Shown: one piece after another, positions 59,674 through 63,297 of the stretch
Layout of the letters: each line of letters starts with the position of its first letter
Position numbering within the stretch: the first letter of the stretch is position 1
Assembly (NCBI RefSeq): GCF_003990725.2
Contig: NZ_CP030064.1
Location: 1,612,001-1,676,000, forward strand
Direction of reading: 5' to 3'
DNA: 64,000 nucleotides
From: Halorubrum sp. PV6
Lineage (GTDB): Archaea > Halobacteriota > Halobacteria > Halobacteriales > Haloferacaceae
Made by a program: the position numbers and the translations under genes
Notes under the pieces: generated by a model
Databases searched by the model: none
The model's input: only the letters and a program-made list of their open reading frames with translations
What the model was told of the DNA's origin: nothing

Positions 59674-59681
59674 GATCACCC
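59674..59681. repeat. Left 8-bp direct repeat GATCACCC (target-site duplication)
   Basis: Directly abuts the left terminus of the element at 59682 and is identical to 62707-62714, which abuts the right terminus. Eight bp is the duplication length made by IS6-family transposases. Confidence 0.8.
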
Positions 59682-59789
59682 GGCTCTGTTGAAATCCTTG
59701 AGAACTCATAGGACTGGCGTGCGAGATACAGAGGGTGGAGTCAGCACGTCTACAAGAACATATCACCTACTGAGGATTTCAACAGAGCC
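59682..59789 (+). mobile_element. Short MITE-like terminal copy A (108 bp)
   Basis: 17-bp perfect terminal inverted repeats (GGCTCTGTTGAAATCCT / AGGATTTCAACAGAGCC) enclose 74 bp. The interior (ACTGGCGTGCGAGATACAGA, then TCAGCACG and AAGAACATATCACC) matches the two ends of copy B in the same orientation, joined at a single CAGCAC (59742-59747). Confidence 0.85.
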
Positions 59790-60030
59790 GAGTCAACCGA
59801 ACAAGTGGTACCTTTTTCAGAATATACTAATCGGGACTATCGCGGGTGTAATTGCTTCTGGAGTTGTGAATAGGGGAGCAATTTACGTATTTGGTTTGGC
59901 GTCTGGTTTCTGGATCGTTTTGATAATGGCACTCAAGGCCTCAAAGCCTATTTTTGACTGGATAGAGAATAAAGAGAATGATGAAGACGCCAAGGACCGA
60001 CCATATCAAAACGCCAAATGCGCCTCTTGA
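59790..60030 (+). pseudogene. 5'-truncated membrane-protein fragment
   Basis: Directly after copy A the plus strand encodes NKWYLFQNILIGTIAGVIAS and a second hydrophobic stretch, then KASKPIFDWIENKENDEDAK and a stop at 60028-60030. There is no good start codon; the frame simply runs in from the mobile-element end, which has probably removed the original N-terminus. Two hydrophobic segments, family unknown. Confidence 0.45.
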
Positions 60031-60146
60031 AATAGCAAATTTTAATCGAATAACCTGTACTGTCCCATCGGTGAGCTCCGGAGATTGACTCTCATCTCCT
60101 GTCACATTCGCGCTCTCAATCTATCTACTCAACAACGGATGTATAA

Positions 60147-60803
60147 TTAGCTGTTCCAGCCGAACCACCCCGCTACAACACCAATAACGAAGCCAACAAG
60201 GTGCCCACCATTGATCCAATTTGGCTCGAAGTATGGACCAATAAATGGATCAACGACGACCGAGAGCATCGCACTAACTCCAAACAACACTACGATCCAC
60301 TGTAAAGAGTCAAATGGCCAGTGACTGCGAGGTAGGTGAATCAGTCCAAATCCAGCCAGCGCGTACACGACTCCACTCACTCCGTAGGATGCTATTTGCT
60401 GATCGGTAAATATGGTGAGAAACACCCCTCCCCCGACTGTTGCCATATATCCTGCCGCAATCAGGAAGACGGCATATCGTTTTTTCGACCAGTGTTTTTC
60501 TAAAGGCACACCAAGGAGAATGAGTCCGGCAATGTTCACGAGGAAATGCGGTATGCTGTTGTGAAGAAACGGCGAGAGCATCCACCCAGCAGAAGGAGCC
60601 ACACCGAATATTCCTTTGGCGACAACCTCGAGATCACCTAGCGAGTTGGTATGCATGATCCATACCTCAACAATGAACATTCCAATGACACAGCCGATGA
60701 GTGCATGAGTAATTGGTGAGCTCTCGGTAGCCAGCTGTTGAATCGCTGCTTTGCCATGTTTGATAACCTGTTCGTCCAACACATCGGTCTTTTTCGACGA
60801 CAT
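60147..60803 (-). CDS. Rhomboid family intramembrane serine protease
   Basis: 218 residues from ATG 60803. Six hydrophobic segments. Catalytic Ser143 in SYGVSGVVYALAGF (GxSG motif), catalytic His201 in NGGHLVGFVIG, and the oxyanion-side pair in IPHFLVNIAG (His86, Asn90), so it should be active. The N-terminal 30 residues are cytosolic and charged. It lies in the transposon-like segment, divergent from a membrane-tethered winged-helix gene with about 100 bp between them. Its substrate is unknown; the neighbour is an obvious candidate. Confidence 0.88.
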   Translation of the reverse strand: MSSKKTDVLDEQVIKHGKAAIQQLATESSPITHALIGCVIGMFIVEVWIMHTNSLGDLEVVAKGIFGVAPSAGWMLSPFLHNSIPHFLVNIAGLILLGVPLEKHWSKKRYAVFLIAAGYMATVGGGVFLTIFTDQQIASYGVSGVVYALAGFGLIHLPRSHWPFDSLQWIVVLFGVSAMLSVVVDPFIGPYFEPNWINGGHLVGFVIGVVAGWFGWNS

Positions 60804-60851
60804 CAATCATCTCGAAGGAAGGTAAATACTTAGTGCAGCGACAAAAACCGA

Positions 60852-60885
60852 CATTCACGGATTGCGGAACGGCATTCAGTGAATG
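60852..60885. promoter_or_regulatory. Putative operator in the rhomboid / winged-helix divergent promoter
   Basis: CATTCA-G-TGAATG (60873-60885) is a perfect dyad about a single base, and a further CATTCA half-site lies at 60852-60857, 21 bp away. Placed between two divergent starts, it is a likely binding site for the winged-helix product. Confidence 0.45.
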
Positions 60886-60905
60886 TAGAACGGGAACTTA
60901 TTACG

Positions 60906-61493
60906 ATGACAACACCAGATGGCGACCTTCCTGAAGATATTGAGTCTCGTATCGATCCGGGGAGTTACGATATGGAACTCACCCAGAGGCATGTCGCTCT
61001 AGAGTTCGTTTTTGGAGATCGTCCCTTCTATACTGTCGCCCAGATGCACGCAGCTCTCGGAAGTGGTGTCAGTCCGGATACGGTCCGATCCCGGTTAGAT
61101 GAACTAGAGGAACGGAACGTGCTCAAGAGTGAGCAAGCGAACAACGGGAACATCTACTGGTTGCTCAGTGAGGATTCTGATTGGCCTCTACCTCCAGACG
61201 TGGAGGTCGAACCAGAGCAGGATAAGATGACGGTCGTTGAGTGGCGTCAACAACTACACGTACAGGTTGCGGCTCTCTCTGTGCTGACCGCCATTATCGG
61301 AACCGCAATAACCCTTATCGGGACTTTTCAAGCAGGAGGGTACTACCAACTCCCGATCAACACGAACAATCTCCTTGCATATGGACTATCAGCAGGTCTC
61401 CTCAGTTACTTTGGCCTGTTTCTTGCTGGAGTCCTTTGGTTTATTGAACTGCCAAGTGTTGACGATATCCGGCAAATCCTACAGTCGAGATAA
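60906..61493 (+). CDS. Winged-helix regulator with C-terminal membrane segments
   Basis: 195 residues from ATG 60906; an upstream GTG at 60879 would lie inside the putative operator. Residues about 20-90 form a winged helix (LTQRHVALEFVFGDRPFYTVAQMHAAL, then SPDTVRSRLDELEERNVLKSEQ and a wing ending IYWLLSEDS). An acidic linker leads to two hydrophobic segments (about 120-141 and 155-180). The regulator is therefore membrane-bound with its DNA-binding part in the cytoplasm. The rhomboid gene next to it suggests release by intramembrane cleavage; this is inference. Confidence 0.75.
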   Translation: MTTPDGDLPEDIESRIDPGSYDMELTQRHVALEFVFGDRPFYTVAQMHAALGSGVSPDTVRSRLDELEERNVLKSEQANNGNIYWLLSEDSDWPLPPDVEVEPEQDKMTVVEWRQQLHVQVAALSVLTAIIGTAITLIGTFQAGGYYQLPINTNNLLAYGLSAGLLSYFGLFLAGVLWFIELPSVDDIRQILQSR

Positions 61494-61522
61494 ACAGCTT
61501 TGTTGAAACCATCTATCAAAGT

Positions 61523-62706
61523 GGCTCTGTTGAAATCCTTAGGAACTGAAAGGACCGGCGTGCGAGATACAGAGGATGAGTACAGCACAACGCCTTCTCT
61601 GCTTCGGTAGGTCTCAGCTGCGTCACTGATCAACAGACGGGCGTATCGGGCGACGTAACATCAATCAAATCTCATGGTAAGGTTGAATCCTGCCCACCGG
61701 TCACAAAGATTATACGGTGCTTCTCGAATCGATAGCTGTCTAATGGATGTTAAAAACACCCGTCTTGTGGCGTTCGCAGTCTTGGTGGCTCTCCTTCTTG
61801 TTGCTCTCCCATTTTATCCCGGAACTTTCAGCCCAGGACACGACCCAAATTCGTATAACTACAAACATCAGATCGAAGAAGGCCCGACAGAGAATGTTAC
61901 CGGCGAGGCTGACAACGTCACCGGTAATCTGGACCTTGGTGAGGAGACCGACGTGGAACAAATCACGTATGAATACGAGGAACTGTCCCCGATAGCACAA
62001 GTGTTGTTTGAGCGGACTCTGAACGCCGAATCGCTGACGCACACTCCAGCCGTGTGTGAAGAATATGTGCTTATTTGTGACGGCTACTACGAACATGACC
62101 TCCCGTCAGAATTCAGATACGGTGCAGGGGGAGAGGACGAACTTCGCTACTCGATTATCGAGTTCAACGGCAGCCAATACCTCCTTCGAACTGGCGTCTT
62201 ATCATCCGGTGCTTGGGAGAACCTTCATATTGCGATTTTGGTGGTTTTATTCCGTGCTCTGATGCTTCTCCTCGGTGGAGCGATCATTACTACGACAGTT
62301 ATTCGGCTCTCAGACCGTTGGACGGGTGTAAACGGGGGTAGATACTCTGCCCTTGTCGGTGCAGGAGCGACGTTTGCCGTCCTCGGCTTCCTTACGCCGT
62401 ATCTCGAAATCTATGGTGGGATCGATTATACCTCGGTCCTATTGGCAAGCGGGGTCATAGCCGCAATCGGTTATATCTCCGTCCAGTATATTTTGCGGAC
62501 TCGTCACTGAAATTGCCTATGGCGGCTGTCGCCACATAAATTTGTGAAATTTATATACGAAAATAACTCCGGTAAAGATGGGTCGGCGATGACGACAAAT
62601 CCCTTGTAGAGAGCATCGTGGACCGACCTCGCCTTGTACCACATTCGCGTCCTCTATTCAGCACGGCTCCAAGAACATATCACCGATTGAGGATTTCAAC
62701 AGAGCC
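61523..62706 (+). mobile_element. Long terminal copy B (1,184 bp) carrying a membrane-protein gene
   Basis: Left end 61523-61588 and right end 62659-62706 are the two halves of copy A in the same orientation, separated by 1,070 bp of other sequence. A CAGCAC hexamer lies at both junctions (61583-61588 and 62659-62664). Copy A could derive from B by deletion between these hexamers, or B could be a copy of A that received an insertion. The only gene inside is a membrane protein, not a transposase. A weaker TIR-like AGCTTTGTTGAAACC lies just outside at 61495-61509. Confidence 0.75.
61743..62510 (+). CDS. Membrane protein carried in terminal copy B
   Basis: 255 residues from ATG 61743, with TTATACGG about 28 bp upstream. 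A signal-anchor segment (about 8-25) is followed by an extracellular domain of about 130 residues with several Asn-x-Thr/Ser sites and the stretch ITYEYEELSPIAQVLFERTL, which I associate with a haloarchaeal domain of unknown function. Three more hydrophobic segments lie in the second half (about 158-182, 198-215, 227-246). Two cysteines in CEEYVLICDG could form a disulfide. Function unknown. Confidence 0.7.
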   Translation: MDVKNTRLVAFAVLVALLLVALPFYPGTFSPGHDPNSYNYKHQIEEGPTENVTGEADNVTGNLDLGEETDVEQITYEYEELSPIAQVLFERTLNAESLTHTPAVCEEYVLICDGYYEHDLPSEFRYGAGGEDELRYSIIEFNGSQYLLRTGVLSSGAWENLHIAILVVLFRALMLLLGGAIITTTVIRLSDRWTGVNGGRYSALVGAGATFAVLGFLTPYLEIYGGIDYTSVLLASGVIAAIGYISVQYILRTRH

Positions 62707-62714
62707 GATCACCC
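62707..62714. repeat. Right 8-bp direct repeat GATCACCC (target-site duplication)
   Basis: Directly abuts the right terminus (62706) and is identical to 59674-59681. Joining the two flanks with one copy would restore an uninterrupted empty site. Confidence 0.8.
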
Positions 62715-62751: not shown

Positions 62752-63297
62752 TCAGGCCTCTTGCTCCGTCAAAAACACCTTCGAGACACTTTCTTCGATC
62801 TCAATTTCAAACGGAAGGTCCACCACACTACCGCGAATAAATCGGATCATAAACGACCGTATCGACTCGGAGGGAAAGACCACGTGAAAACTCCCTTCTT
62901 CTGTCTGTCGGACGGTTAAGAATCCACAGAGAGAGAGCCAATCGAGGACTTCCTTCAGCGAGTCGAACCGCTCTGCATACTCTTGTGCGTGGTATTGGGC
63001 TACTTGGTCGACCATGTCGGTGAACTCTCCGTTACCGTTCTCGGCGTCGTCAACTTGGCTCAAGAGTGCGTACAGTAGATCGATATCTAAGAGAATGTGC
63101 TCGCCCGTCTAGAGCATCTCATAATACGTCTGAAGATGGTCGCTGTCGCTTGTGTTCGCCGATTCGAAGTTCGCCGCATAGAACGCGATCGCCTTACGGA
63201 TCAGTTCACTTCGGCTTTCGTTGGTCTGGTCGGTCAGTTCTTCTAACGCACTCTTGGTATCTTCATTTAGGGAGACTGTGACTCGATCACTCGCCAT
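62752..63297 (-). pseudogene. Ribbon-helix-helix regulator gene split by an in-frame TAG
   Basis: The RHH product (62 codons from ATG 63297) stops at TAG 63111-63109 after HLQTYYEML. The same frame continues without a break as TGEHILLDIDLLYALLSQ and onward to 62752, where the protein ends FEIEIEESVSKVFLTEQEA. From memory, full-length haloarchaeal CopG-like regulators of about 180 residues read straight through this point, with a Ser or similar in place of the stop. So a single point mutation (for example TCG to TAG) has split one 182-codon gene. The C-terminal part could only be made by read-through or internal initiation (TTG 63063). Confidence 0.7.
63109..63297 (-). CDS. CopG-type ribbon-helix-helix domain, N-terminal part of the split gene
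   Basis: 62 residues: MASDRVTVSLNEDTKSALEEL (ribbon and first helix) then TNESRSELIRKAIAFYAANFE (second helix). This is a complete DNA-binding domain, so a truncated protein could still bind DNA as a dimer. The missing C-terminal domain would normally sense or bind a partner. It lies just right of the composite transposon and left of an IS200/IS605 remnant. Confidence 0.75.
   Translation of the reverse strand: MASDRVTVSLNEDTKSALEELTDQTNESRSELIRKAIAFYAANFESANTSDSDHLQTYYEML

Follow-up and report, generated by a model that had tools for sequence, protein, structure and literature searches.

A 3,025-bp transposase-less segment with IS5-type ends in Halorubrum sp. PV6 resembles a MITE-flanked composite transposon

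Results

A low-GC segment with inverted ends lies within a single target duplication

The window, by which we mean the whole 64,000-nucleotide stretch of Halorubrum sp. PV6 DNA that was analyzed, contains a 3,025-bp segment of foreign DNA inserted upstream of an Nramp gene, with a GC content of 0.489 compared with 0.678 for the window. The following features were found at the locus.

59674..59681 (no strand), left copy of the 8-bp target duplication GATCACCC, an exact match to the right copy
59682..59789 (+), unit A, a 108-bp MITE with perfect 17-bp TIRs, an alpha-type left end joined to a beta-type right end
59797..60030 (+), small TM ORF where A meets the cargo, probably a fragmentary gene
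60147..60803 (−), predicted rhomboid-family intramembrane protease (Pfam PF01694, E 3.6e-17)
60879..61493 (+), predicted winged-helix regulator with C-terminal TM segments and weak HTH matches
61496..61522 (+), relic left end of another family member, TIR-like with 4 mismatches, the probable insertion target of unit B
61523..62706 (+), unit B, a 1,184-bp passenger element with an alpha-type left end and a beta-type right end
61743..62510 (+), passenger gene of B, encoding a 255-aa membrane protein that has a conserved pair of Cys residues; the gene may start further upstream, at 61674
62658..62706 (+), beta-type right end of B, which is the outer right end of the composite
62707..62714 (no strand), right copy of GATCACCC, an exact match to the left copy

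The 3,025 bp are measured between the two copies of GATCACCC (59682-62706), and the outer ends, GGCTCTGTTGAAATCCT at 59682-59698 and AGGATTTCAACAGAGCC at 62690-62706, are perfect 17-bp inverted repeats. A first-pass annotation of this DNA had claimed such ends, an exact 8-bp duplication around them and a low-GC cargo with a protease and a regulator and no transposase, and each of these was borne out. The segment contains no transposase.

The 17-bp end occurs exactly four times in the window, compared with 0.04 copies expected in shuffled sequence, and the four copies delimit two units in direct orientation, A and B. The inner flanks of the units are unpaired, as GAGTCAAC follows A, ATCAAAGT precedes B, and neither matches as a duplication. 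A target duplication is therefore common to the outer pair of ends only, that is, to the composite segment, which indicates that the 3,025-bp segment behaved as a unit. When the 8-bp flanks of all harvested end pairs were compared by register, 115 exact matches were obtained, and shifts from −12 to +12 gave 0 to 3 matches each. Because matches are almost confined to the exact register, the GATCACCC duplication is not due to chance. One alternative is that unrelated elements were nested at this position and share the 8-bp sequence by coincidence. Nested insertions are known in this end family (L112), and B itself sat in a relic end; both pairs of flanks match in L112, however, whereas the inner flanks in the window are unpaired, and the probability that 8-bp flanks agree exactly, in the proper register, by chance is about 1.5e-5. 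We consider coincidental nesting very unlikely.

The cargo genes have relatives in other haloarchaea

The predicted rhomboid protein contains a serine motif (GVSG) and, further along, a histidine motif (NGGHLVG); its nearest relative is 49% identical, and a rhomboid scan of the named genomes gave no match. Divergent from the rhomboid gene is the winged-helix gene, the product of which has relatives with 57 to 58% identity in two Halorubrum genomes (G152 and G110) and on a Haloferax lucentense plasmid. No relatives of the small TM ORF were found in the search. The 255-aa protein of B had no Pfam match, and its AlphaFold model has a mean pLDDT of 66. Relatives of the B protein are present in 28 of the 392 genomes of the order that was searched, and comparison of the B gene with its closest relative, the copy in genome G007, gave a dN/dS of 0.28, indicating that the gene has been kept by selection.

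Units A and B are different kinds of element that share ends

The bounding units had been described in the first-pass annotation as two related terminal copies. Both do bear the same 17-bp ends, and their left ends are about 85% identical, but they are not simple twins, as A is a MITE and B is a separate passenger element with a relative elsewhere. That relative, in G007 (another genus), is a stand-alone element colinear with B that has both ends, the same gene and a duplication matching at 6 of 8 positions. We conclude that B is an independent element. By virtue of the G007 element, B alone also corresponds to a mobile insertion cassette, meaning a passenger between IS ends that lacks a transposase and has moved alone, and it exceeds the classical size of a MITE because it carries a gene.

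Unit A folds as a long end-to-end hairpin (z −5.3). Its left-type and right-type ends are joined at TCAGCAC, and inspection of B revealed copies of CAGCAC near both of its inner edges; A thus looks like what remains of a larger passenger element after a deletion between short repeats. The relic end at the left flank of B points to an older target site, and B had probably landed in another family member's end by the time the composite moved. End doublets like that at 61496-61522 were found 5 times among 361 distinct ends, compared with about 0.2 expected, and members of the end family seem to favor sites just within each other's ends as targets.

We also note that tandem ends in the same orientation, 24 to 32 bp apart, are present both at 61496-61522 in the window and at similar spots in three other loci (L071, L075 and L092).

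The insertion site in related genomes

Both flanks of the segment were present in 2 of 51 other Halorubrum genomes, G139 and G149. In G139 the flanks are about 239 bp apart with no insertion and are too diverged to reveal the bases that preceded insertion. In G149 the intergenic locus between the Nramp and ribbon-helix-helix (RHH) genes holds an unrelated 3.1-kb insert (L207 2956-6085) with a second IS5-type transposase and a glutamate-dehydrogenase-like gene, both named from sequence. The Nramp/RHH intergenic site may be a repeated insertion target. A clean empty site, AGAATC-GATCACCC-CGACTT, had been predicted from the window; the junction is compatible with the un-inserted G139 locus, but with G139 diverged and G149 occupied by another insert, the exact empty site was found in none of the 51 genomes. 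The composite itself was found in this one genome, and no donor locus for it was found.

Beside the insertion, the ribbon-helix-helix gene at 62752-63297 has an in-frame TAG near 63109, and the G149 counterpart is an uninterrupted 181-aa ORF.

Matching ends are paired with an IS5-family transposase

Searching the PV6 genome at up to 2 mismatches gave 52 end sites and none for a reversed-pattern control. Thirty-nine of the 52 lie on the 0.30-Mb second replicon, giving it an end density about 27 times that of the main chromosome. The second replicon also carries the sole transposase found joined to GGCTCTGTTGAAAT ends in this genome, an IS5-family member (NF033579, E 4e-57) that has a stop at codon 254, where relatives read on, and lacks its other end. 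No intact cognate transposase was found in this genome. Relatives of the transposase are present in 47 of 52 Halorubrum genomes, a count that includes more distant IS5 relatives. Moreover, several intact IS5 elements from Halorubrum and many other haloarchaea carry the identical 17-bp end at either terminus and are flanked by perfect 8-bp duplications. Of 80 named loci, 74 have a spacing of exactly 52 bp between the end and the transposase ATG, and 36 scored as complete with a duplication, including two (L341 and L345) whose left flank is at a contig edge, so that the duplication was not truly tested there. In public records the matching transposase lineage is named ISHla2 and ISHxa2, and the window element has the matching TIRs and 8-bp duplication of a derivative of that type. 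We conclude from the shared ends that the cognate transposase is of the IS5 family (ISHla2/ISHxa2 type). Literature searches, which most subscription journals lay outside, returned no paper on ISHla2 or ISHxa2 and none on the end sequence in an archaeal context.

The first-pass annotation had instead attributed the movement to a resident IS6-family element acting in trans. A transposase-less composite that moved as a unit, probably by action in trans, is supported, but the IS6 part of the proposal did not hold. IS6 elements likewise give 8-bp duplications and have ends with a CTGTT-type core (PMC7986276), and IS6 transposases are resident in this genome. An 8-bp duplication, however, fits an IS6 composite without being diagnostic of one, because the IS5-type elements here also give 8 bp. 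Moreover, the ends around the resident IS6 transposases are of the GGCGATGTTAAG or GGYGGTGTTCAGATAAGG type and differ from those of the element, and every transposase found paired with matching ends was of the IS5 family. A composite moved by resident IS6 elements is accordingly a very improbable reading.

Two other origins were rejected. The IS1595/ISH4 group came into question through its 8-bp duplications and the passengers known for it, but its two resident copies lack the 17-bp end. Against a viral origin, a search of 2.9 million viral contigs returned just 7 exact matches to the end, and the element had no match in annotated phages.

Separately, one IS6 element with GGCGATGTTAAG ends (L074, at 217.8-218.5 kb of the second replicon, G000:C2) appears to have inserted in the terminal repeat of a member of the IS5-type family, with CTCTGTTG apparently duplicated.

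The same ends bound many elements that lack a transposase

The end was present in all 52 Halorubrum genomes searched (genus inferred; reversed-pattern control, 0) and on plasmids of many haloarchaeal genera. End pairs harvested from the fetched loci yielded 75 distinct duplication-bounded elements. An IS5 transposase is carried by 37 of them, a share that is enriched because the transposase had been a search target. The other 38 have none, range from 125 to 3,025 bp with a median of 609 bp and indicate that the end has regularly moved without its own transposase; such elements are mostly unannotated in the records viewed. Loci with different cargo between the same ends, which the earlier reading of the window had proposed looking for, do exist, and many of the 38 carry genes, HicBA toxin-antitoxin and membrane-protein genes among them. 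Passengers of the transposase-less elements, in a list that spans end-bounded elements, some of which lack a perfect duplication, include a HicBA-like toxin-antitoxin pair, a glycosyltransferase, a cold-shock protein, a sodium/bile-acid-symporter-like protein and DUF4260.

Some passengers of these sibling elements have been captured or moved. The HicBA segment lacks the ends in most relatives and is end-bounded in a few, with identical inner junctions in PV6 and two other genomes (G108 and G115), a distribution which argues that the HicBA elements are the capture of an ordinary gene. Two further passengers occupy target sites that differ between species or genera. Between two HicBA elements, L071 (G000:C2:156985-157743) and L219 (G108:C56:118529-119287), the interiors are 3.4% different and the subterminal bases 18 to 55 differ by 50% and 37%. 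A Halorubrum/Haloferax pair, L116 and L131, follows the same trend, with ends more diverged than the interior. Judging by these alignments, exchange or conversion of the ends seems to outpace the evolution of the cargo.

A second composite and the probable history of the segment

A second composite was found in Halorubrum sp. GN11_10-6_MGM (L331 1922-3768), with the same + − + − order of ends and one outer duplication. Its layout is GGAAGAGT, 518 bp, GGTTTCCCT, a transposase element and GGAAGAGT; one arm has an IS5 transposase, and the other has a 103-aa passenger that is also present at G000:C1:2031574-2032095.

We think it probable that the 3,025-bp segment is a non-autonomous, MITE-flanked composite transposon in which A and B flanked a gene pair in a donor and were mobilized in trans by an IS5-family transposase. 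In the donor molecule, A (the MITE) and B (the passenger element) would have lain in the same orientation on either side of the rhomboid/regulator pair, and B would itself have been lodged in an end belonging to a third member of the family. Acting in trans, an IS5-family transposase would then have used the two outermost ends, the left one of A and the right one of B, to insert the whole segment upstream of the Nramp gene, duplicating GATCACCC.

Recombination could also build the arrangement, given end exchange between elements. B would first have inserted at GATCACCC alone, and a circle with A and the rhomboid/regulator pair would then have joined the left end of B by homologous recombination, like translocatable units beside IS26. 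This route yields an identical final map with one outer duplication, the similarity of the A and B left ends is in keeping with it, and the subterminal divergence between siblings (37 to 50%, versus 3.4% for interiors) points to frequent recombination at ends. The suggested end exchange keeps the recombination route alive at a lower probability; the route, however, requires an extra circular intermediate, the relic end left of B is a pre-existing insertion site that transposition as a composite predicts directly, and a second composite with the same layout exists. We regard the recombination route as unlikely and favor transposition of the composite in trans.

Discussion

The closest parallels to the window element are TIME-COMPs, bacterial MITE-bounded composites with Tn3-derived MITEs that are moved in trans (Pseudomonas, PMC4133298; Enterobacteriaceae, PMC13367494). 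As in TIME-COMPs, two transposase-less units, MITEs or MITE-derived, surround unrelated genes in direct (in TIME-COMPs, direct or inverted) orientation within one outer duplication, no transposase lies inside, and the transposase is proposed to act in trans. TIME-COMPs, however, are of Tn3-family origin in the strict sense, with Tn3-type ends and 5-bp duplications in bacteria, whereas the window element has IS5-type ends, an IS5-family transposase with the same ends and an 8-bp duplication in a haloarchaeon; unlike in TIME-COMPs, one arm itself carries a gene. By analogy, the window element is best read as an archaeal counterpart of bacterial TIME-COMPs.

Other known systems share some of these features. 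ISHla2 and ISHxa2 have the same 17-bp ends and 8-bp duplications but encode a transposase, which the window element lacks. IS26/IS6 pseudo-compound transposons also have direct repeats around cargo and 8-bp duplications but differ in transposase family and ends, and a review of the IS6 family lists just one member that has a passenger gene (PMC7986276). In Halobacterium salinarum, an ISH2 MITE and a partial ISH8A are reported to have integrated as one cassette with one target duplication (PMC10264941, special case A). That cassette likewise places a haloarchaeal MITE and a related partial IS inside one duplication, but it has ISH8 ends, a 10-bp duplication and adjacent elements with no host genes between them. 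A 2024 review of MITEs mentions haloarchaeal MITEs briefly, and a keyword search of it gave no match for passenger genes (PMC10969869). A composite of the present kind has not been described for haloarchaeal IS5 elements in the literature searched.

Judging from the window element, several ordinary genes can be moved together in archaea by IS5-type ends that lack a transposase, whereas multi-gene movement by such a route has been documented mainly for bacterial resistance genes. If general, it could explain part of the heavy gene exchange among haloarchaea. More tentatively, haloarchaea might share a cassette-like system of gene shuttling in which one IS5 transposase lineage moves a large population of modular ends, more numerous than the transposase copies, that capture ordinary host genes, swap their subterminal 40 bp by recombination and form composites; on this view, the composite in the window would be an intermediate toward new multi-gene cassettes.

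Single passengers between IS ends have been termed mobile insertion cassettes (MICs) when they lack a transposase and transporter ISs (tISs) when they have one (PMC3129680). B and many of its siblings fit the description of MICs, and the window element differs in being a composite of two units. Finally, we note that the ISHxa2 locus on a Halopiger xanaduensis plasmid (L417 1949-4438), which spans 2,490 bp between CACCGTCT duplications, also carries a hypothetical gene and an RDD-family gene and is thus a transporter IS.
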